A DNA stretch of 64,000 nucleotides, taken from Diprion similis (Eukaryota; Arthropoda; Insecta; Hymenoptera; Diprionidae). A program made the translations under genes and the position numbers. A model generated the notes under the pieces. That model had not been told where the DNA came from. It saw nothing but the letters and a program-made list of their open reading frames with translations, and did no database searches. The stretch spans positions 10,830,493 to 10,894,492 of the forward strand of contig NC_060115.1 of the NCBI RefSeq assembly GCF_021155765.1, written 5' to 3'. Positions 9,166 through 59,790 of the stretch are shown here, one piece after another; position 1 is the first letter of the stretch; the number at the start of each line of letters is the position of its first letter.

Positions 9166-9533
9166 GATTACGTGGAAATCATGCGGATTCAAGTATAATA
9201 ACTCTTCAAGATTATTCGAATTGAAACTCCTTATACTTGTGTAGAGTTGAATCGCAATTAAAATACACAATATCCAAGTATCGTTTGTAATCATTCTGCA
9301 TAGAGTCAATGTATCGATTGTAACTATCTATCATCGAGTTCGGAAAAAAAGAAAAAAAAAAAAAAAATACAAACTGACGAATTCAGTATTATTGTTGATG
9401 ACTTGAACTTTTCACTATTAAACGATTTCTACATGAAACCTTTACAGATAACATTGATAATCTATTTGTATCTCATGTATAACAGTGTCAATTTAAAATA
9501 TATATGCATACTTATGGATATATGTAAACATTA

Positions 9534-10070
9534 GGGTGGTCCTTATTTAGAGCTCGAATGAATTATTCATCAGACGCCCCCCAAATCGGCTCCAAATAAT
9601 TAAAAATAAATTTCCTAGGTTTTAGATTTTTATCTCAACTGCAACCTCTGCCCTGTATATATTTTATTGTAAGTAAGAATAATAATTTTCAAAAAAAAAT
9701 CTCTAACTGCGAGAAAAAAAAAAACCACGTCATGCCAGGCAATATAAACAAATTGCACGCCCATTAAATGACAAAAAAAAAGTCAGATTTAAAGGTTGTG
9801 CAATTCGTCTAAATTTCCTGGCATGATGTGAGTTTTTTTTATCTCGTAGTTACAGATTATTTTTAAAATTATTACTCTTGAAATAAAATATCTATTTAGA
9901 CTGTAACCGAAACACGTGTATTTTGAATAGGGAAAACCAGCCTCTTGCAGGAAGGGGTTAGAGTTGAGATAAAAACCTGGAAAAATTGTTGAATTGTTTT
10001 TGAATTATTGTGAATCGATGTGGGGAAGGTCTGATGAAAAATTCATCCGAACCCTAAATCGGGACCAGCC
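9534..10070. mobile_element. Foldback (MITE-like) element, 537 bp, TA-flanked
   Basis: The left end GGGTGGTCCTTATTTAG and the inverted right end (reading inward GGCTGGTCCCGATTTAG) match closely. The internal arms continue to pair: the block ACGTCATGCCAGGCAAT near 9729 faces its inverted copy CATGCCAGGAAATT near 9810-9830. The whole element is an imperfect palindrome centred near 9780. TA dinucleotides flank both ends (9532-9533 and 10071-10072), as expected for Tc1/mariner-type insertion. There is no transposase frame. Arm divergence suggests an old copy. Confidence 0.75.
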
Positions 10071-13000
10071 TAGTATACATGTATGCACACATATACGTAC
10101 ATGCGAGGTCGAAGATTCCTATACACACTCAAGTCTACCGTATATCGATTCCCATGTAAAAACAAACAAAAAGATTAGAAAACGCGAATGTGTGTGGAGC
10201 GAGCTATTGACTTTACACTTTAAACTGTTCGTAATTTCGACGCTACATCGAAATTAATAATATATCTCCTGTATTATACATTCGCGTATTTCGTCTATTT
10301 TACTGCTTTAGTATATGTATATGCATAGGCTAACTTTATTGTGTCAAGTGAGAAAATAGGAATAAAATAATCCCCCGTTGTTTAGTCTACAGGCTTCCAG
10401 AAATTTCAGTCACGCAAATTTGTTGCTGCGTAGTTGGTAAAAACGCGGATTTCTTTTTTTCCCCCCCTCCCCTAGTAGTTCGATGTTTTAAATTTTAATA
10501 ATCGTACGATTACAAATATATAGTAATTCGTATGTTATTCTATCGAATAATGAAATTAGTAAATATAGATTATGTGTATATATATATATATATATTATAG
10601 ATATGATCGATATTCGGAAGTGAAGAGCGGTAAACAAAAAAAAAAAAAAAAAAAAAAAAAGAAAAAAGAAAAGAATTAAAATAATGAAAGGAAATTTAGA
10701 AAACGGAAATAATATATAATATATATACGTACGCATAAATAAATAAAGTGGAAAAAATGATACGGCAAAAGTACCTAAAAAGATTGTTTTTTCACTGCGC
10801 TATGCTATATACAATGAAATAAAGAAGTGAATAAACAATCAATTCAACAAGTGTACCCTTGTAGATGGGTTTTTCTTCAATGCTTTCAAAGAGTGGAGAA
10901 AAAAAAAAAAAAAAAAAAAAACAACTATACTAGATCGAGAAAAAAAATGACAACTTTACAAACGAAATATATTACAGCTTTCAGTATATTCGATATCACG
11001 ATACATTCCACTGTCTGCGACAAAATGATCGTGATATATATTGTGTGATAAATTGATATGGTGAATTTTTTTTTTTTTTTTTTGCATAAAAGGTTTTCAC
11101 AAACATACAAAAACAAGTGTTTCGATATCTCCTCGAAATACTGAAACGCGACGGAATATTGGAATAAAAAAAGAAAAAGAAAAAAAAGATGTCAATTGTT
11201 CGAATATGTACGCGATTATGCGAATTTTTTTTATTTTTCTTTATGGTATATTCTTTTCTACTAGTTATTTTTACAAATTTACCGCATAAAGCATAAAACG
11301 TAATAGTATATACACCGATAAACTTTATCCCCCTGTTATATTTCCGATAAAATGGTTGAGAAGGGGGAGTAAAAAAAAAAAAAAAAAAAATATGAAAAAC
11401 TTTTGTTTAATTGTTGTTATTCCCGTGATATATCGAAAAATAATTCCTGTAAATACGTGCGTTTAAATTCTCATCGTCGTCGTGTTGTCGTGATAAATAC
11501 CGTTTAATGAATATAACCATATAATAGCCATACCTATGTGTGCATGTATAGCGTGATGGAAAGTAGAAAAATTTGTCCAATGTAGTATCGAAAGTTGCGA
11601 TTTATAGTTATACATATGTAGTCAGAAATCAATAATTAAATGATGTAAACTGCGTATACAAGACAAAAAAGTCGCTTTGATAATAATATTATTATTATTA
11701 TTATTATTTTTTCTTTTTGCAAAAATAAAAAATCAATAAATAAACAAACAACAACAAAGTCCAGAAATTGGGTAAAAGTTACTATATACCATATACACGT
11801 GTATACTTAATTAATATAACTGTACAGTGAATTTATTAAAAACGTACACACACACACACACACACACGTATATACAATATAAAAATATTATAAGGACTGT
11901 TCGCGTACCTAAGATTGTTACGTAAAAATAAAGCAAAACGTAAAAGAATAAAAAAAAAAAAAGAAAAAAAAATTTGTTTCAACGTTATACGTTGCGTTAT
12001 AGTTTACTCTAGCGATAATTTCTTCTCTTTCACTCTCTCTCTCTCTCTCTCTCTCTGTTACTAATCCGTTATCAGACTTATCGCCCCGAAGTGTTGGTTT
12101 AGAAATCGAGATTACACAATACTGTAATATCATTTCACCACACAACTTTATCATTTGGTTGGTTTTAGAAGAACGGGTTGAAAAATTAAATAAATTAAAA
12201 ACGATTGTACTGTTTTTGCTAGTACATCGAATCGATAAAAAAAAAGGATCAGCGAGACAAAATCAAATCAAACACGTTATCGAAGCTTAGTTTCCTTCAA
12301 GCAAGTACGCATAACGAGGACTCGAATAATTCTACACAATCTTCATAAGAACCGGTGAAATACGTAATTATTGTTAGTTTTAGAATGAAATTGCAGAGAA
12401 AAATAGTCCTGTACTAAAAATGAAAACAAAAAATCAAGTTCGATTATATTTTACACTGTAAAAACTCGATACACATACACACCGATATTCGAATAGGAAA
12501 AATAAATGGCTACTTGATTAAGAATTCCATTATACCTAGGTAGAAACACCAATTTAATAGAAGATGCGAACTATTTATAAATGAATTAGAAACTTCGCAT
12601 ATGTACGGACTCAATAGCGCATATCGCAATTAACGCAATTATGTACGTTAATTGATATGTTATATATACACAATGATCGTGTGACACGTGCGAATAATAT
12701 CAGAGTGTTACAAGTATCGCAAATATTTGTGCTTACTGGAAACCATATCTACCTCCTTTTAATTTACACGCGAATTCTAAATCAGACATTTTTCATTTTC
12801 CATTTCCAAGATTTTCATGCCGGTACAAGAACTGTCACGTCGAAAAAACACGAATTAGAAAAGAATTTATAAAGATCAGTAGAAAAGTCCAAGCGTGTTT
12901 CCCTTCAGTCTTCAACTTCTTTTAGAATACATAGTGGCTTAGGGTATTTTTAGAAACTTCATTGTTATACGCGCGGTTATAACTTGCGGGAATAGAACGT

Positions 13001-13858: not shown

Positions 13859-13902
13859 AATTTTTTTTTCGTTAGTCACTGTGAAAATATCGTTCAAGAT
13901 GA

Positions 13903-13942
<40 letters not shown>

Positions 13943-14576
13943 TGGAATTTGATTACTCAACAAGGAATTGGTGTACCGTAAAAAGCAATACATATTTCTG
14001 TAGAAAACTGCACGATCTACAAAAGAGATCTCTTGCGATTTTTTCCGTAAATCTACTGGTTCAAAAGTTGATAAAAATATAAATTTTGTACAATAGTTTT
14101 GGTTAAAAACTTATTTCTTGTCAAGTAATCGGAAATTTTTGGTAAAATTTCGACGTTTCAGTAAAGAAGATAACATAAACTTTAAGAATTGTTATGTTTT
14201 TTCCATTTTTCAACCATTATTTCATAGTGGAAATGAAAAAAAATATGTGAAATTTAACATAACTAATTTTTAACCTTGAATAACTTTTAAACCAGTAGAT
14301 TTACGAAAAATTCGCAAGAGACTTTTTTTTGTAGATGGTTCGATTTCCAACAAAAATATTTATTGCTCTTTACGATACACCAATCCGTTGTTGATCAATA
14401 AAATTCCAAGATAAAAAAAAAAATCCTGTTATTCAAACGGGAATTGGAAAATTGCAAAGATTAATATTAATACTAAGTACTCGAACTTTTATAGAATTTT
14501 TTTTCGTCATCCTGAACGATATTTTCACGGTGGCTAACAAAAATATTAAAAAATGTCATTTTTTTGGCCCACCGTA
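13859..14576. mobile_element. Degraded foldback element related to the ABCB6-intron palindrome
   Basis: Two arms of about 300 bp are inverted copies. For example GAAAATATCGTTCAAGATGA near 13890 faces TCATCCTGAACGATATTTTC near 14510, and GTAAATCTACTGGTTCAAAA near 14048 faces TTTTAAACCAGTAGATTTAC near 14290. The same blocks (CTACAAAA..GTCTCTTG, AAATCTACT..TCAAAAGTTAT, TTCAGGAT) occur in the 42.2-42.9 kb palindrome, so both belong to one family. The right end (near 14576) reads inward as TACGGTGGGCCAAAAAAATG. The left end is eroded and its limit uncertain. No open frame of its own. Confidence 0.7.
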
Positions 14577-41100: not shown

Positions 41101-43417
41101 TGTGCCATGCGTTTTTCCATGTCGATGAGTTGTCATCTAAGCGCTGCGAAGGTACGTTAATTTTACTGATGTTCGTGACGAGAGGAATAATAAGTTGATC
41201 AAATTTAGATTTTTTTTTGAAAACAATACTCTATAATCAATACAGCAAGAGAAAAAAGCATATCTTGTTTCATTTTAATATTTTCACACACAGTATGAGA
41301 GTTAAGAATATCTAATTCACTCCTCTTTCATAAAGTTATTGATAGCGACAATAATATTCGCTGATGACAAAGATTTTGCGTATTTGAAAAACTTACATTT
41401 TGTCGGAATCTGGGTCGTGCATTTGCATTATCATTGATTGTACGATAATCATTTTGAACCATATCAGTTATTCCTGGAGCTTTCAGTCCCAATGCAAAAA
41501 TTAGCAAGCTAGTGACGTACCGTAATACGAATAGAGACATTTCTATTTGGTCTGTCAGCCTGCAAATAAAATGACCTGATCACAACTTGGTACACACTAT
41601 TGTCTTGATTTACGTATACTTTTCATTTTAATTATATTGCCAGTAATCACTGATATCATATTTTTCGACAATACCAACTAAGATGTATTTTATGAAATTT
41701 CATAATAAAATAAACTGTGTAACGTTACATTCATCATTTTTCTGTGTCGGTAATAATCCAAAAGATATCAGAATGATTTTCTTCGAGCATCCCACTCTGT
41801 ACAAATTGATCGATAAAAACCATGCGTGGCGATGTCCCAATATTATTTCAGAATAACAGAATCAATAAAGAAAACCAAAGATGCAAGAAAAATCCAATGA
41901 CATTATGGAACAATAAATTAAAGTAGAACTTTGATGTGTTCAGTGATATGTATGAATACTTACGAATTCAAGTGGAACCACCATTCCAGCCTACCAATAT
42001 TGATGAAGACTAAGTTTTCCGCTACGAAAGCCAGAGTCCAGAATCCTAGTAGTACCAATCCATGACCTCGAGTTGGAACACTGGGTAATAATTTGTGGCG
42101 TTCGACTCTCAGGATATGAACTGAATATGGATAAATTACGACAGTCAGAACTGTGGATAATATCTGAAACATGTATGCCAGTTGAATTTAACAGGTATCT
42201 ACATTACGCAGTAGACTGTATCAAAAAAATTTACTATTTTTTGTTTTCAAAAACATACTGAAAATATTGTTCAGGATAGCGAAAAAAGGCGCCTGTTAAA
42301 ATGGGAGCTCTTAATTTTAATACTAAGAAGTGCCTCATCGCGATTTTCTACTTTCCATAAGAATAACATGGCAAAAATGGTTCTTGCTCCTTGCGATTTT
42401 TATAACTAGATAACGACGCGTCGTACAGAAAATTCATAAACATGTTTTTGTAGGAAATTGAACGTTCTACAAAAAAGGTCTCTTGTCATTTTACGATAAA
42501 TCTACTCCTTCAAAAGTTATTTGAGGTCAAACATCAACAAAGGACCTCAAATAACTTTTGAAGGAGTAGATTTATCGTAAAATGACAAGAGACCTTTTTT
42601 GTAGAACGTTCAATTTCCTACAAAAACATGTTTAGGAATTTTCTGTACGACGCGTCGTTATCTAGTTATAAAAATCGCAAGGAGCAAGAACCATTTTTGC
42701 CATGTTATTCTTATGGAAAGTAGAAAATCGCGATAAAGCACTTCTTAGTATTAAAATTGAGAGCTCCTATTTTAACAGGCGCCTTTTTTCGGTATCCTGA
42801 ACAATATATTCAGTATATTTTTCAAAAAAAAAAAATTGTCAATTTTTTTGATACAGTCTATTACACAGTCAAGATAGAAATTGCAAATACTGAATGTACT
42901 GATCATCTACACGATGGTACAAATTGATTTACCCCATTTTTTTAACTCAAAACTATCACCGATCTCTGGTTTTTTAATTTTTTGTGTATTTATTATGGAT
43001 TTTCGATATAAAGACCCAGTAAAAATCTTAATGAATTGGTATTCGAGTGATAAAATGATTTGGCTATCATTTTTGTGATAACATTAAATATAACTATATT
43101 ATACATACCATGTATCCATATATTGTTTTATCGTCCAACACAGTGGCTTGAAGTATTATTCTAACCACGCTGAGAAACGGTAAGAAGTATAAGGCGAACT
43201 TCTGTATGTTGTACAATGTGCTTTTTCCCAGTAAATTTTCGTTTATTTCTGTCGAATACTTTTTGTACATAAATAATTGAATTGTCCCAAATATTATGAG
43301 ATACGAAGATATAAAACAGGTGCTGACAGTGTCCATGAAGCATTTTGAAGTGCCATGATTTACCCAAATTTCATTGAGGGTAATGTTTGGTGGGCAAAAA
43401 GTCATTGTCGTATTCAT
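38148..43417 (-). CDS. ABCB6: ABCB6/Hmt-1 ATP-binding cassette transporter, complete, 11 exons, 843 aa
   Basis: Minus-strand exons 43417-43109, 42163-41964, 41559-41397, 41143-40932, 40700-40554, 40464-40241, 40050-39770, 39632-39532, 39397-39054, 38883-38726 and 38540-38148 join in frame. Length equals human ABCB6 (842 aa). The N-terminal hydrophobic TMD0 (about 1-200) is followed by the core domain with family blocks [33 protein letters not shown] and [20 protein letters not shown]. The nucleotide-binding domain has Walker A GPSGAGKS (617-624), Q-loop Q665, signature LSGGEKQ (721-727), Walker B ending LLDE (743-746) and switch H777. In animals it functions as a homodimer, reported in mitochondrial, endolysosomal and plasma membranes, in porphyrin/heme handling and heavy-metal tolerance. 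Intron 1 carries a large palindromic insertion. Confidence 0.96.
42214..42858. mobile_element. Near-perfect 645-bp palindromic (foldback) element in ABCB6 intron 1
   Basis: Two arms of about 315 bp are inverted copies around a 14-base spacer (42529-42542). The inner 200 bp of each arm differ at about one base; the outer part carries a handful of mismatches and A/T-run length differences. The ends read GACTGTATC...GATACAGTC, flanked by TA on both sides (42212-42213 and 42859-42860), so a Tc1/mariner-like TA insertion is plausible. No protein is encoded. It is related to the degraded element at 13859-14576. The element stops 50 bp before the exon 2 acceptor of the minus-strand gene. Confidence 0.9.
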
Positions 43418-44310: not shown

Positions 44311-44700
44311 GTAGAGGTAAAAATATAGAAAGATCAAAGAATCAAAGGGCCACAAAATCGAACTTCTAAAGAAATGAAATCTTAATTCATAGAATTTTAA
44401 AATGTTGAAATTCATAGTATGGAAAAGCAGAAGAACAGAAAAGTCAGAGCATACAATGCGAAGCTGTAACATCGTCAGGATTCTTCTAAATGATACAGAT
44501 GGATTCGTATACTGATTCTAGATTTTGCTGTCTTATGTTTTGACTTTTATATTTTCTCTTTCTGTATTGTAACTTTCTATATTTTCAATTTCCTGTACTT
44601 TGACTTTCCACATTTTTAAATTCTATGAATAAGATTTTCGCATTTATGAGAATTCGATATTCTGGTCCTTCTATCAAATGGCAATTCTAGGTTTTTTACC
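44311..44700. repeat. Imperfect inverted repeat
   Basis: The block around 44330-44415 (ATCTTAATTCATAGAATTTT) is inverted around 44610-44670 (AAATTCTATGAATAAGAT), and pairing continues outward through CCTCTAC-type blocks. The spacer has reiterated GACTTT/TATTTTC units. Probably a relic of a foldback element. Limits uncertain. Confidence 0.45.
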
Positions 44701-46983
44701 TCTACTTCAAGTGCAAACTAAATTCTTGGGCATATATACAGATCTTAAGAGGTTTTAAAGATGCTACGATGAAAAATTATAATAATATACATACGAGAGT
44801 GTAGCAATAAAATATATATGACATCAGCAACAGTTTTAAGTTCAAAAGTAATAACAATTTTTTTAGTGATATACTTTACTCGAATTTTTTGATCGTGAAG
44901 TTACACAAGTTAATCAAAGAACACTTTTTTCATCCCTAGTAAAAACTGTTTTTTGCCAACTACCAAATATCTGTTAGCATATACCTATGTACATGTATAC
45001 TTTTGGTTGAAATTCAAAGATCAGATTTGCCCGTAACTTTTGTGCCACGACAAATTATTTCATATGATAAGTGAGATTACAAATTATGCCATGGAAAATA
45101 TCTCTATTTTATCTATAGTATCTAATTTATATGAATTTGAAGACTGCGTGTGATCTGTTTCAAAGATAGGTATGAACGTGACAATTTGAAAGATTAAACC
45201 TGAGTGTAAAATAACAAATTGATAGGCGTCATGACCAAGTATTGAAAAGTAGTAAAGTTTTCTATAATGAGTTGTTATATCTCTTTATCCTCCGTCATAA
45301 TAGGATTAGGCTGTCAGATAACAGATTAGTTAAATGTTGAATTTGATTATAATATTTTAAAAGTAATTAATTCACAAAGTAGAATTCGAATATTTCTATG
45401 TGGGAGACGAATATTGTGCATTATCAATAGTATACATTAATTTCGAACGTACTTTGTATTGTAACGAGTTGTTTCATATCAAACTGAGTGATAAAGAAAT
45501 CGAAATCTGAGTAATTATGTACAAGACCTTTGCTCCATTCAATTGGTTACATTCAACGACTTGTATCATTGCACGTAATTCTTTCCGTGTTCGCATACAT
45601 TCTACAACAAAACCTAGAATAATTCTTTTCGTAATGTAAGTTCAAACAATCGACAGATATAAGATTAGTGTATCATACTTTACAAGGTAGTTATTTTCAA
45701 TATAAAAGTAGTCAGTAACGTTCTCGAGGGGACGACACGGTGATAACTATCCACACAGTTTAAGTCAAGTTTTATCAAAGAGTTGGACGTGCAGAACAAT
45801 CACTGACCACCGATTACGCAACGAGTCTAGACAATTGTGAAGAGGGCAGTGAATTTCGATTGCAGCGATCATGTTGAAAAGAAGATTCGATTATTTTTAT
45901 TAGGTAGAGGTATGTAGGTACAATGACATGTTTCGTTTTGAAAGCTTGTCAATGGATACTAATACCCAATGTGCCTGAATTCTCAAATACTGAGACACCA
46001 GTGATGCATGAATGCAGTAAGTGCATTCTTTGTCAAAGGTTGTTCAATTTATTTCTCTTTTAGTGTATTTATTCACTCGTCTTCTACGACAAAAATTTTC
46101 AATAAGACGTAATTCGGTAGTGCGTAATTATGAAAATAATATGACAATGTTCGAAGTTTACCTTTTCACTCGTTCACTCACGACACTTCAAATGAACGGT
46201 GACCATAGCCTCGCAACTCGCTCTGAAGCACATTCGAATTGTCATCATCTTAGCGATCGCACGTAGGCATGCATCGGTGATGATCACTGATAGTCTGATA
46301 TATATATACACTTGATGTATATCTGTATCAGACGTTCTGCGTGTGAGGCCGTGCTAAAACTGCGTAGGTGGCTATGCTATCCGTTCATCGGTTGGTGCGA
46401 TTTATCGCAGAAGACACCGATTGGACTTATTCATTGGTCCGCCATGTTTACCTGCAATACACATGTAATCACGTGTTCTGATAATCGTTGTGTTGGTATG
46501 ACTGACAGGTATGACTTGAGGTTATCATAGAATTCGCAGATGATAAAGAAGGGTTAGAAACCATTTGAAATTACTCTGATTAAAGTTTTGGTTATTTATT
46601 GGTAACACAGAGGTGGAATCAATATTCGGTCCCGTATTAATTTGTTCAATTGTAATTCACGGTGAATAATCATTTCATAATTCAAAACCTTGCTAAACGT
46701 CGGTGAATATGTATGAGATTGAGATTTAAGAACTTCACTGATTGGTATGTATTGTACATACATACATACATTTGCCGCCAGTTTAATAAGATAACTTGGT
46801 TACGTAACTTGGCTACGAATGTTACAGTAGAAATCAGTGAATTGCAATGCAGCCGATATAACGGTAATTGTCAACGGGAACAATTAACCTCGCATTATTC
46901 AAAATTACATCTCGTGAAAGTATTCCAGCAACTTTCAAATGTGGGAGAATGATTTCGTTCATTCGACGTGAGAGTCGTCCAAT

Positions 46984-53900: not shown

Positions 53901-56900
53901 ATATCGGTATTTAGAATGAATTTTGGTCATCTAATCGTTGTTTTTCTTGCCATGGCAAATGCGTCACACCAATAAGCAGCATCATAGAAAATCTTAATCT
54001 TTGGATATGAAAATATCTATTTTAAAAGAAAAGGATAACATGAGCTTTGCTCCAGAGGTAAACTGACCTGTTACCATTATGACACTGATATTGGCTTCCC
54101 TCAGCTCTTTTATCACCTCCACAGTCGGTTCTTTCAGACGATTTTCCAGTACGACTAACCCGAGGAATTCCAAATCTTTTTCTACTTGATCTCTCGACAT
54201 TCTCTGAATCTAAAAACCATTGTATAGAAAGTAGAAAAAAAAAATCGAAAGAATCTATGCATGCGATATAAAATTCTTTAAAGATCGATTCTCCTCTTTT
54301 AAACTGGATTAAATTTTTTTTTTTTTTTTTTTTTTTTTTTGCAAAATTCATTTGGAGGCCCAGCAAACTCCGTTCCCTTTCCTGTTTTCCTCTATATTCA
54401 CCTTAGCGTAGTTGCCTCCAACGGAAGTACGAGCAAGAGCAATGACTCTGTACCCCTGTTCGGTATACTGCTGCAAAGCTTCGGTAATATTTCTTGGTAT
54501 AGAGTCGGGTTTACTCAAGCTGAGTATCATCTCGGGTGATCCTTTTGTGTAGGCCAAAAAACGATCGGATCCCAACACCCTGACGATCACCGACATCCTC
54601 TGTAACGTGCTAGAAAAGTGATACTGCTGCACGATCCCTATCTCCGATATGTTGTTTATATTTTCTGTGAAGTTCTCGTTCGTTGGAGGTTTCACAATCG
54701 TTGGTACAAGCAGATCGTACTTGCTGGTGTCCGCTATTTCAGGCTCCTCGAGAATCCATCTTGTGCTTTCGAACATCTGCGAAGAGATTAACGATCAAAC
54801 GATCTTAATCAAGATCTCATAGGCTGGAGCCTGCTTTTTGCGATTCGCGAAGCTGGCTTCGGCATGGTTTTAGGTACCTTGACGTCCAAAGGATCTCCGC
54901 ACAGCTCACCCCCGATCAACGTCAGGCTGTGACACACCAGCATGCCTTCGAATATCGGATGAGTTTTGAGCGATGGCACATCCTTAACGGGTCCTCCGAG
55001 AAGTCCATCGCTACTTGGCACGACTCCCCACATGTCCAATCCATCCTCGGTCAGAGTTCCTGTCTGATCAGAGATGGAGAAGATTGATGTTCATTTGTTC
55101 TGTATCGCACACTCTTATGATTGGATCAAGCATTGGCACGCCATAAGCTGCTCAGCTGACTTCGTTCTTTCCAAACAAAAATCCAAATTCATCTCAGAAG
55201 TGAAAATTAATCTTTATGATTATTTAATACTGTTGTCGAAGGGAGCCTAGACCCTGATGTCTTCCTACCTTATCGAAGCAAACGCAGTTCAAGCTCCCGG
55301 CAACGTTGATGACTCTGCTATTTATGCAATATATTTGCGCACACTTCAATCTCGCTTGAGCGTATAACTTCCCGACTGTCATTGCTGCAGGCAACGCAGG
55401 TGGAATCACAATCGTAATTATGTCCAATGCCTTTATCGCAATATCTCCAGCGGTCGTTCCACGGGATATCTGAATCGAACGACAGACAGCGTAAGGTTTG
55501 CACGTGGTCTCTTCTAAGTTTTTGCAAGTACAGTTATTGATTAAAATGTTGAATATCACACAACCGGTCCTGAGTTAGTGTAAACAATAATAATATAATA
55601 ACGGTCTCGATCGTCAATGATAAAGATACTATCGCAAATCCTTCCAGACCGGTTTACCTTGCTGACAATGGTGTAGGTGAAACCGCATGTTGCTATGACA
55701 GCTAAAATAGCGATGAATTTGTACGAGTCTTGGTCAAATTTGAAATCTGCAGGTGGTGGGTATAAGATAGCCGCTACCAGGGCTCCTCTGCTCGTTTCCA
55801 GTCCAGTTCTCACAACCTTGGCTAAAACCGGTCCGCTGCCGTAGTACCTTTAATAATTGGATCATAGGTTCTCGATGGTTTGTCAATAAACGGAAATTAA
55901 TCCGATGGTCAAAAAATAGCGATCTTATAGACTTCTATACAAAATTTTGCGACAATAAAAAGTCTGATCTCCTATATATAAAATAACCTGCGTGAAGGAG
56001 GGTTAATAGCTGGTATTAGGTCATGGCTATTTACCTTGTCTGTATTATTAACGTTCCACTGTACAGCGTGTGTTGGGCGCAGCTTTTTGGATCGTAGACA
56101 ACTGAGTGCCGAGGCAAAGGTGTTTTTGTAACCGGTATGGATTCACCTGAAGGAAAATCATTGCCATTTTATTTGCATATTTAATTTCTTGAATGCAGTC
56201 ATTCGTTCGTTCTTACTTTCTGCTAATCCGTAAAACGGTGATTGGTGTGAATAACATTTTAAATGAAAATACTTAGTATTGGTATTTTTGAAATTTGGCA
56301 GTTGTGTGAGAATTTTTCGTTTCATTTCACTGTATGTATAACGTTACCACGGATAACTCAACGTTTTATATTAATATATATGGGCAGTTCCACGTCAACT
56401 GTTTCACATGACAAGCGATTTCATTCTTAGAACTTAGTGAGATCGTTGAGTTTTCCCAGAAACCAATTGTTTGCCAAAAGATTTGTAAAAATTTTCACCA
56501 CTGTAGAAGTCACGTGCCTTCAAATTTTCTGTTCGATGAGTTTAAAGAAATTTTTATACCTCCGAAATCATTTGTTATATTATCAATTTTTTTTAATTAC
56601 TTTAACCGAAAAATGTTCAAAGTCTCGGGAGAAAAATATATGTCATTTATGCAAGCTGTAAAAAGTGGCTTGAATCATACATAAATAAAACAAAATAATC
56701 AATTTTTAATGGTGTATTCTCACTTTAAAAATTTGGAAAGAATATATGTTATTTCGTGCGGTTTTATCGTTATTTTGAAGTCTTGATAATTTGGTGTTTC
56801 ATGTAATTTACGGGATATCAACCGTTGGCTGGTACTGTGGGGTCCTAGATGACCCTACTCTCATTCATAAAAAATACTAAAAAAAATGGACTCGATTTCT

Positions 56901-59790
56901 TTGGAGTTTTCGATTTTTTCTGCGTTTAACATTTTTTTTCATGACTAAAACTTCGTCCTTTAAATATTCTGTACTAGATTTAAAATAAATGTTATTCTGA
57001 GCCTTCCATGGACCAACTGGACAAAAATGCGCCTGATACAGACTTCAAAATTTAATATCTTGTAAAATAGATGAGACACCAAACTTTCGAAGCTCTCAAA
57101 ATAAGGGTAAAACCATACAAAATAACATATATTTATTCTAAATTTTATAGAGTGATAGAACACCATTGGAAACTGAATTTTAGTGTATTTGCATGATTCG
57201 GTAAACATTTCACAGCTTGCATCGATAACATATTTTTCTCCTCAAACTTCGGACTTTTATGCATCAAACTAACTCAAGTACCTGACTGAGATTCTGCTAA
57301 ATAGTTTGAGATTTACGAATTTTTTTATTTTACATCATCGAACAAAAATTTTTCATGTAACAACTTTAACAGATCTGAAAATTTTCAGAATTTAAATAAA
57401 ATCGCATGTTTAGATCTGGATACCGTCGAATACCACAGCGATAATATATTTTGTTACCAACATTTAACGTGAAGCAGACACCGGAGTACTCATCTTAGAA
57501 CGCTACGTGATAGTAACTTATTATTATTCTCAAGCGGGACTTTGTGTCATGCGAGAGTGACGTGGAGTTCGGTAAAAAATTGTAATCCATAATTAATCCA
57601 GTCAAAAAGTAAAAAACGACCGGTTCCATAAACAACTTCATTTCCATGAATTCCCGTTCAGTATTGTAGATACGAGACACTTGACACAACGAACATATAT
57701 ATTGATACGTTCGCAATTTTTTCTAGATCGGCATTATCATCATCATCAGATAAAAATAACAAGGTGCTCAATTATCGAAGTGCGAGTTCTCGGTTAAACC
57801 GGAAATTCAAAGTCAACTCGTCAATTATACACATGAATCGATACTTTTTCTACGCGCATTCATTGGTCATTACTCACCTGTCAACATGGACTCGTTCAGT
57901 ATGCATTGTCCTGTGAGAAGGACCGCGTCACAGACAACAATCCCTTGATATTTTGGCAGTTCAATGACATCGCCGGGGACCAGTTCCGAACTTGAAATGG
58001 TCTCGAATACTCCTGGTCCTCTCCAAACTCTGACATTTTCTGAGGAAGCGACGGTACCGTGGAGGTTCTTCTGATTCTGATAACAAATACGCGATTAGAA
58101 GTTCGGGGAAAAAATGTTTATTACCGTCGTTTACAATCATAATTAGCAGGAATTTATGACGATAATTAAAGTATAATAGAAGCAATCAGAATTACAGTAC
58201 TTTTGTGGTAGAAAATGTTTTTTCTTCTCTCTTTAAACTTACCTTGCGAGTCTGTATTATCGAACTGATTATACCGAACAAAGACATGCCGATAATTGCG
58301 ATCGTGTAATAGATATATCCTTCGGCAAACCACACGGCCAAGGTGAATACTTGAAAAATGTAGAACGGGTTTATGCATTCCAACAAGAGTAGAACGCCTA
58401 TACTTTGCACTGGTACTAGTATTTCATTGTTACCGTAAACGATCCTCCTGATTGTGCGGAAAAAAATCTTTGAGCGATGGATAAGCGATTGAATATTGTT
58501 GTTTGAATAGTTAAACATTTTGTCATATCACCTTAGCAATTGTTCCTCTCTGGATAAACCTTTGGCTTCGTGAAGATCGGCGCATAGTACATGCTTGTCT
58601 AAGCCGACGAGCTTTGAGAATTCACTCTTGTTTGTGTCCCAAATATAGCATTGTTTTTTACACCAGAATGCCTTGTACTCGTCGACTTCTCGTAACGTAC
58701 CATTTTCCAATTTTATCGTTAACTTGCGCCCTTCGATTTTTCTTATCAGATCTTCTTCTATTTTACCCAGCATCTCACTCAAAGATTTCTCCCTGTTAAT
58801 GTACAAAAGACAGTATTCTCTCACGTATATATTTATATATTTTTTTCTTTTATACAGTCAGACATCCAGCTCTGTACCAATATTTTCTAAATTTGTTCAA
58901 AATTTTAAACTAATCTTCGGACTAGCTACGTAGAAAAATTATTCATTCGGCTTCGGAATGTAAAAATTGGTACTAAAAGATAAAGAACTAATTAATACAG
59001 ATCATCAAAAGTATGCCAATGGAATTTAAATTTGATTTAAATTAAATTTTTCATCGAGTAATTATTATTAATACAGGCTCTGAATGAAAATTCCAAACTG
59101 TTGAAAACTACGTGTTTTACATTATGATTTTATAATACTTGGGAAACTATAGTTTGGGCACGAATAATTAGTTATCGTGATCTGAAATGTATGGAAATTA
59201 AAATGCCATCATTCGTTACGTTACCTCAAATTCTTCGTAGAGACGGTCCTCACATCTTTGACAAAATACGATTTGTATTTTCCCTGGTAATCGTCCTGGA
59301 AAAACGAGAAAAAAAAGAAGAAAAAAAAAAAAAAAAAAAACTAAATGAGTGAATGAATATAAATTCGGAGATATAAGTTCATGTTTGCGCGTATCACGTG
59401 CTCCTAACGAGTTGCACCTGTTGAAATAGGTGAACATGTTACGGCTAGTTTACGTAATACCGTACTTACGATAATCAACAGTTTCGTAGCTCGGCTCAAA
59501 GGACATTTTCTATGAGTTGCATATAAATACAGCTGTGGATACCAGTGAAAAAATAATCTAACACAACCGGCAGTTAGAATAAACGTCACGTAAGTCAGGA
59601 AGCTCGCCACCGTGCTCCTCTCGAAGCCAAGTACTTGCTGAAAAGGTGAAAAGGAATCTAACGAATATAGTTGACATTTTATTGTTGACTCGTTATTTTT
59701 GAATTTTAACTTTCCTTACCATTTCATCATCATGCCCGCTGATGAGTTTCTGAAGATGAGATTCCGAATGAAATGTAGGTTTTTTCAAGT
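50909..59790 (-). CDS. ATP13A3: P5B-type ATPase (ATP13A2/3 group polyamine transporter), 16 exons, about 1230 aa visible, first exon missing
   Basis: Minus-strand exons 59790-59720, 59637-59470, 59295-59225, 58792-58532, 58447-58243, 58076-57878, 56146-56035, 55847-55658, 55469-55269, 55063-54878, 54776-54402, 54209-54068, 53798-53650, 52816 (or 52825)-52597, 52159-52078 and 51971-50909 join in frame. Motifs in order: NPFYIFQ, actuator LTGES, P5B signature PPALPAAMT, phosphorylation motif [10 protein letters not shown] (visible residue D491), KGSPE in the nucleotide domain, [12 protein letters not shown] hinge, and a C-terminal membrane domain with FQFLFID-like blocks. Length equals human ATP13A3. 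In animals these pumps sit in late endosomes and lysosomes and move polyamines to the cytosol. Introns split both the TGES and DKTGT motifs. The first exon seen starts mid-codon with no ATG, so the true start lies upstream. Confidence 0.95.
52826..53649 (-). other. ATP13A intron between the hinge-side exons
   Basis: 824-bp intron. Its plus strand carries two frames of about 100 codons (52880-53176, 53180-53497) with no recognisable domain. They are probably chance openings in a slightly GC-richer insert; a decayed mobile element cannot be excluded. Confidence 0.4.
56382..57572. mobile_element. Large foldback element (about 1.2 kb) in an ATP13A intron
   Basis: Ends GTTCCACGTCA (56387) and TGACGTGGAGT (57559-57569) are inverted copies. 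The arms continue: AATATATGTTATTTCGTG near 56741 faces ACAAAATAACATATAT near 57117, and ATGCAAGCTGT near 56649 faces ACAGCTTGCAT near 57212. The arms pair imperfectly over several hundred bases around a centre near 56980, with indels, so this is an old copy. No long open frame. It makes up most of the 1.7-kb intron between the exons ending 57878 and starting 56146. Confidence 0.72.

Follow-up and report, generated by a model that had tools for sequence, protein, structure and literature searches.

A palindrome in intron 1 of an ABCB6-like gene of Diprion similis is probably a hAT-type fold-back MITE, from a family whose arms appear to exchange sequence

The long palindrome in intron 1 of an ABCB6-like gene of Diprion similis is very probably a non-autonomous hAT-type fold-back MITE, of a kind whose arms would exchange sequence and which would sometimes be cut at the tip of its hairpin. 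The window analyzed here is a stretch of 64,000 nucleotides (assembly GCF_021155765.1, contig NC_060115.1, positions 10,830,493 to 10,894,492 of the forward strand), and positions below are those of the window. As a first-pass annotation of the window had reported, the palindrome is long and nearly perfect: it spans 645 bp (42214–42858), and its arms, 315 and 316 nt long and 95.9% alike, enclose a 14-nt spacer. The arms show 13 aligned differences (12 substitutions and 1 indel), of which 10 lie in the outer 100 nt and only 1 in the inner 190, in agreement with the description of the inner arms as almost identical. No open frame of at least 70 aa lies wholly within the 649-bp element. The RNA of the palindrome, read on the gene's strand, was predicted to form a single long hairpin with a folding energy of -487.8 kcal/mol, against -120.9 +/- 6.0 for 20 shuffles; since the energy is far below that of the shuffles, the palindrome is not a chance structure. 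The very long pre-mRNA hairpin expected by the annotation was thus reproduced computationally.

The host gene lies on the minus strand. Its exons 1 and 2 both match the MTABC_N domain, and the best match of a later exon was to PDB chains named ABCB6. Intron 1 has GT..AG ends, and the reading frame is continuous over it. The annotation had also placed the palindrome in ABCB6 intron 1 near the acceptor, and this was confirmed, with 48 nt between the element and exon 2 (Table 1).

Table 1. Features of the element, its host intron and an old relative, in window coordinates
Feature	Position	Strand
Whole element, 649 bp; probable hAT-type non-autonomous fold-back MITE, A/A type	42212..42860	
Left arm, 315 nt	42214..42528	+
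Spacer, 14 nt, AAACATCAACAAAG; asymmetric, which gives the element its orientation	42529..42542	+
Right arm, 316 nt	42543..42858	-
Terminal repeat tip TAGACTGTATC	42212..42222	+
Terminal repeat tip TAGACTGTATC	42850..42860	-
Target site duplication, copy 1, TTACGCAG	42204..42211	
Target site duplication, copy 2, TTACACAG, one mismatch	42861..42868	
Intron 1, ABCB6-like gene, 945 nt, GTATGT...TTTCAG	42164..43108	-
Coding exon 1, ABCB6-like gene, MTABC_N; start set by choice at the first ATG of the frame	43109..43417	-
Exon 2 (open part), ABCB6-like gene, MTABC_N	41963..42163	-
Old degraded relative, own arms about 69% alike, longer interior; edges from local alignment	13873..14566	

Relatives of the element probably number a few hundred in the genome. 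Other copies, for which the first-pass annotation had proposed a search, proved to be numerous: with as many as 2 mismatches allowed, the loop pattern matched 280 times (141 + 139) in the 269-Mb assembly, compared with 1 (0 + 1) for the reversed control. As some copies contain two or three loops, these matches are not a count of copies. Exact tip matches numbered 244 (113 + 131; control, 0), and a query with the left arm yielded 71 matches from the 40 candidates that were scored out of 923 in that assembly. Arm statistics were based on 47 two-armed copies; a copy was kept when BLAST matched both of its arms from tip to centre, and L111 and L113, which have long centres, were dropped. Because these 47 copies occupy separate places and most of those with readable tips have their own 8-bp duplication, an assembly artefact is unlikely to be the source of the palindrome.

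The centre of the element varies within the family. An AT-rich stretch follows the loop in L091, L105, L106, L107, L109, L110, L111, L113 and L131, several of which carry two or three loops, and in L085 (479–1082) the centre is tandemly duplicated to give left arm, partial right arm, partial left arm and right arm. The common 14-nt loop could have been derived from an AT-rich centre via deletion between GACCT repeats. The window also contains other repeats. A second hAT-like fold-back element lies at 9532–10072, with arms about 68% alike and, by eye, tips TAGGGTGGTCC / GGACCAGCCTA and an 8-bp duplication GTAAACAT/GTATACAT. Imperfect inverted repeats, 75% alike, were found at 56611–57258 (arms near 210 nt) and 44311–44705.

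We classified 96 loci, 56 of which were selected because they resembled the window arm or tip, which biased this set to type A, and 40 because they had an exact loop. A tally designated C1–C5 comprised the 50 loci with the 52 exact-loop matches found among the 100 loop matches listed of the 280, 10 of the 50 having been fetched by likeness; it is a sample of exact-loop copies, and copies with a lost or mismatched loop fall outside it.

The family is built of interchangeable outer modules (A, B and an older C) on a common inner core. A and B arms differ at 20 diagnostic alignment columns, which lie in columns 38–112, the outer third of the arm, and the inner two thirds have no A/B diagnostic difference by the criterion used. 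The 47 two-armed copies comprised 24 AA, 12 BB, 10 mixed and 1 CC. All 10 mixed copies came from the likeness-chosen set, in which 31 copies are two-armed. In the C1–C5 sample, none of the 21 A/B-typed two-armed copies (L056 and L112 typed from BLAST alone) was mixed, and 9.9 would be expected under random pairing; L094, a damaged C1–C5 copy outside the 21, combines a B arm with a remnant of type A. Given the 10 mixed copies and L094, the pairing of arm types is not strict.

The sequences indicate that the two arms of one element have been equalized more than once, and equalization after insertion or in source copies would be compatible with them alike. Five results point to repeated equalization, in addition to the lack of mixed copies among the 21 typed C1–C5 copies. 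First, the mean within-element distance over the whole arm was 0.047 against 0.062 for A/A copies and 0.043 against 0.053 for B/B copies, lower than in any of 5000 re-pairings; when B/B arms were restricted to their inner part, 1 of 5000 re-pairings reached the within-element value. Second, among 80 variants present on exactly two of the 94 arms (columns at arm positions 10–40 and those with more than 20% gaps left aside), 36 were on both arms of one element, where 0.86 were expected. The C-type copy L132 accounts for 15 of the 36, and without it the count was 21 of 65. Third, 14 of 31 tree cherries joined both arms of one element (support, 0.06 to 1.0); shuffles gave a mean of 0.35 and a maximum of 4, or, within types, a mean of 1.5 and a maximum of 5. 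Fourth, the arms of L059 are 0.3% apart, and every other sampled arm is at least 3.5% away. Finally, the longest identical run exceeded weighted shuffles at p 0.05 in 5 of 24 A/A copies, with 1.2 expected. These patterns would arise if resident arms pair with each other, as a cruciform or hairpin, and exchange sequence by template switching or repair, thereby staying alike. The concert could in part be inheritance from equal-armed sources.

We consider it rather unlikely that youth and subfamily structure alone, with bursts from equal-armed sources and no conversion after insertion, explain the likeness of the arms. The tree signal is indeed weaker within types, though still there, and seemingly private variants could sit in unsampled sister copies. 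However, A/A and B/B copies share diagnostic states in both arms, bar scattered changes, which implies at least one equalization per type, and the near identity of the L059 arms, with no sampled arm nearer than 3.5%, also speaks against this explanation. A separate idea, that conversion focused on the centre is a rule of the family, was rejected: the within/between ratio ranged from 0.57 to 0.89 over A/A bins, without a gradient.

The near identity of the inner arms in the window copy had been attributed to a recent insertion or to arm-to-arm conversion. The first part of this proposal failed. The window copy is not recent, because its arms are 3.8% apart, its duplication has one mismatch, and other arms are nearer than the arm's own partner (left arm, 15 of 92; right arm, 6 of 92). 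The second part agrees with the arm-to-arm homogenization in the family, and a converted inner tract in the window copy is possible. At arm positions 126–315 this copy has 1 difference (A/A median, 5.5; mean, 7.0), and 2 of the 24 A/A copies, the window copy included, have 1 or fewer; at positions 1–125 it has 11 (median, 7). The boundary at 126 was picked after the data were seen, and a run of 99 identical columns, the longest in this copy, was not unusual relative to weighted shuffles (p 0.245). Between-copy divergence per site in the 24 A/A copies was 0.115 at positions 1–35, 0.074 at 36–110, 0.035–0.038 at 111–210 and 0.060–0.065 at 211–315, and the clean inner arms of the window copy are therefore in part due to this position effect between copies.

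Damage in the family starts next to the loop. When the 50 C1–C5 loci were sorted by hand, 22 were two-armed with a single loop, the centre was AT-rich or repeated in 8, 7 had an internal deletion but retained the tip, 12 were one-armed and 1 was truncated on both sides. L107 and L131, which are one-armed with an AT-rich centre, were counted among the 8, and in L099 and L108 the tip of the better arm is also absent. One arm is badly damaged in 19 copies; the median distance between the loop and the start of this damage was 10 nt (hand-sorted breakpoints), and 14 of the 19 proximal breakpoints were within 35 nt of it, compared with 2.1 expected if breakpoints were uniform over 315 nt (p 3e-10). 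Several internal junctions share words of 2–6 nt, by eye, and others show none, or filler. The hairpin tip would sometimes be cut and most of one arm lost by end-joining. Hairpin-capped ends are treated in part of a review (PMC7999016), and if such an end were opened close to the tip, the remnant would be one arm with the loop and a short stretch of the second arm.

Nested insertions may explain some of the one-armed copies, since one of five junction flanks is a repeat with 29 matches, another gave weak hits (roughly 80% across about 70 bp), and L091 has a facing tip 1.58 kb away; the other three flanks are single copy. In L108, the flank past the truncated arm is single copy, and from 820 on it resembles, by eye, what we take to be a piece of a Penelope-like element.

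A less probable account of the one-armed copies is aborted gap repair after excision, without breakage of the hairpin tip. Aborted gap repair, too, would leave one arm together with the loop and a small part of the second arm, and some loci fit it: in L107 the truncated end is followed directly by ATATATAT, and in L131 by a near match of that copy's own duplication, though both lie in AT-simple sequence, and L074 has an exact duplication match 578 nt away (1.4 near matches were expected by shuffling). This account, however, predicts a second 8-bp duplication at the junction, and among the 24 truncated copies examined, no copy whose duplication includes a G or C had the second one at that place, bar the near match of L131.

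The element in ABCB6 intron 1 is most likely passive, because 48 nt including the acceptor are outside it. The first-pass annotation had raised the idea that it acts on ABCB6 as a source of siRNA or a brake on splicing. The stable, long hairpin predicted in the RNA 48 nt from the acceptor would suit such a role, but with the acceptor and the 48 nt upstream of exon 2 not within the element we regard it as improbable.

The assignment to hAT was drawn from the target site duplication. In 21 of 25 informative copies, 7–8 of 8 flanking positions matched, whereas different copies agreed at 11.7%; the 25 remain of the 47 copies once 13 with changed or mislocated tips and 9 whose left duplication lacks both G and C are set aside. 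Of the four copies that missed, L068 and L096 look, by eye, a base or two out of register. With AT-simple cases included, 28 of 34 two-armed copies with readable tips have their own 8-bp duplication. Its consensus is nTnnnnAn (T2 in 24 of 25 and A7 in 22 of 25), with T4 (19 of 25) and A5 (21 of 25) also frequent. The agreement of flanks beyond the TA was 0.845 of positions at length 8 and 0.064–0.120 at lengths 5, 7, 9 and 11; the raised values at lengths 6 (0.520) and 10 (0.572) reflect the alternating TA sequence. The TA is part of the tip TAGACTGTATC, and the tip of the older C type (L132) is TAGGGTGTGTC. Both tips, TAGACTG and TAGGGTG, resemble hAT ends, which is a point against a Galileo-like origin.

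The length of the duplication and its form indicate hAT, not Tc1/mariner. Both the form of the Ac group, nTnnnnAn (given in the part of PMC8961557 on that group), and that of the Buster group, nnnTAnnn (likewise in part of PMC3517528), are reflected in the consensus, so that T4 and A5 beside T2 and A7 leave no single hAT group fixed by the duplication. The 315-nt arms depart from the 10–25 bp terminal repeats described for hAT elements in a passage of PMC3942097, a usual rather than a defining trait. The element has the properties of a MITE: it is 649 bp long, non-coding and multicopy (280 loop matches), with terminal repeats and a target duplication.

A P-superfamily, Galileo-like fold-back element, with its long arms and 7–8 bp duplications, is a very improbable alternative: Galileo, as presented in the relevant section of PMC4168063, has long terminal inverted repeats and 7–8 bp duplications with the consensus GTATTAC, so that a length of 8 fits, but the consensus in the window family is nTnTAnAn. 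A Tc1/mariner-type MITE with TA as the target duplication, as the annotation suggested, is scarcely credible although most copies are flanked by TA, because flank agreement continues past the TA to 0.845 at length 8 and L042 and L052 keep all 8 bp intact with one TA mutated. The TA-duplication model was rejected on this agreement; what stands of the proposal is a non-autonomous DNA transposon present in many copies, with a duplication of 8 bp, nTnnnnAn.

In the proposed mechanism, the element would have been inserted into ABCB6 intron 1 by a hAT transposase supplied in trans, which would act on TAGACTG (older: TAGGGTG) tips. We searched the genome for a partner. hAT dimerization domains gave 116 matches, and no hAT element with the tips of the window family was found within 600 bp downstream of 20 of these 116 loci, where the best resemblance to the tip had 3 mismatches (6 loci). 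Inspection by eye of the 100 listed of the 244 exact tips revealed no facing pairs 2–6 kb apart, and a search with the C-type arm returned arms but no candidate partner among 40 scored of 918 candidates.

These results correct the class of the element in the ABCB6 intron from TA-duplicating to hAT-type. With its many near-identical 645-bp palindromes, each carrying its own target duplication, the family should record both arm conversion and the first cut separately in many copies. We tentatively propose, at somewhat less than even confidence, that germline pairing continually re-equalizes the arms, that A, B and C modules spread from arm to arm, and that copies die mainly via cuts at the hairpin tip. 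If re-equalization and hairpin-tip death are true, the family offers a natural, genome-wide assay of how an animal repairs palindromes. To our knowledge, what is known of the persistence and decay of long palindromes in animal germlines comes mostly from engineered loci and a few large palindromes. Such a fold-back family was not named in the titles and abstract openings of the literature searched, a scope with subscription journals mostly outside it.

Known systems share single traits with the family. Mar and other hAT MITEs of Drosophila, in the passages of PMC3517528 that describe them, are like it in being non-coding, about 600 bp long and A+T-rich, with 8-bp duplications. Mar differs in its 11-bp terminal repeats and Buster-type nnnTAnnn duplication (same passages), whereas the window family consists nearly entirely of two 315-nt arms and has its strongest duplication positions in the Ac-type form nTnnnnAn (in the excerpt of PMC8961557 on target sites). 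Galileo and Foldback-like elements, according to sections of PMC4168063 and PMC3169594, share very long inverted arms and variable structure, and the two arms of one Tm1 element average 93.15% identity (in a portion of PMC3169594). These elements differ in being relatives of P or Mutator with 7–9 bp duplications of another form, as those sections of PMC4168063 and PMC3169594 describe, and Tm1 arms, unlike those of the window family, contain tandem repeats (same portion of PMC3169594). Long-palindrome instability, as treated in parts of PMC7999016, shares central breaks, hairpin ends that need opening and arm-to-arm conversion in Y palindromes; those passages concern yeast and human loci and cancer, whereas the window family is a natural transposon with many separate scars.
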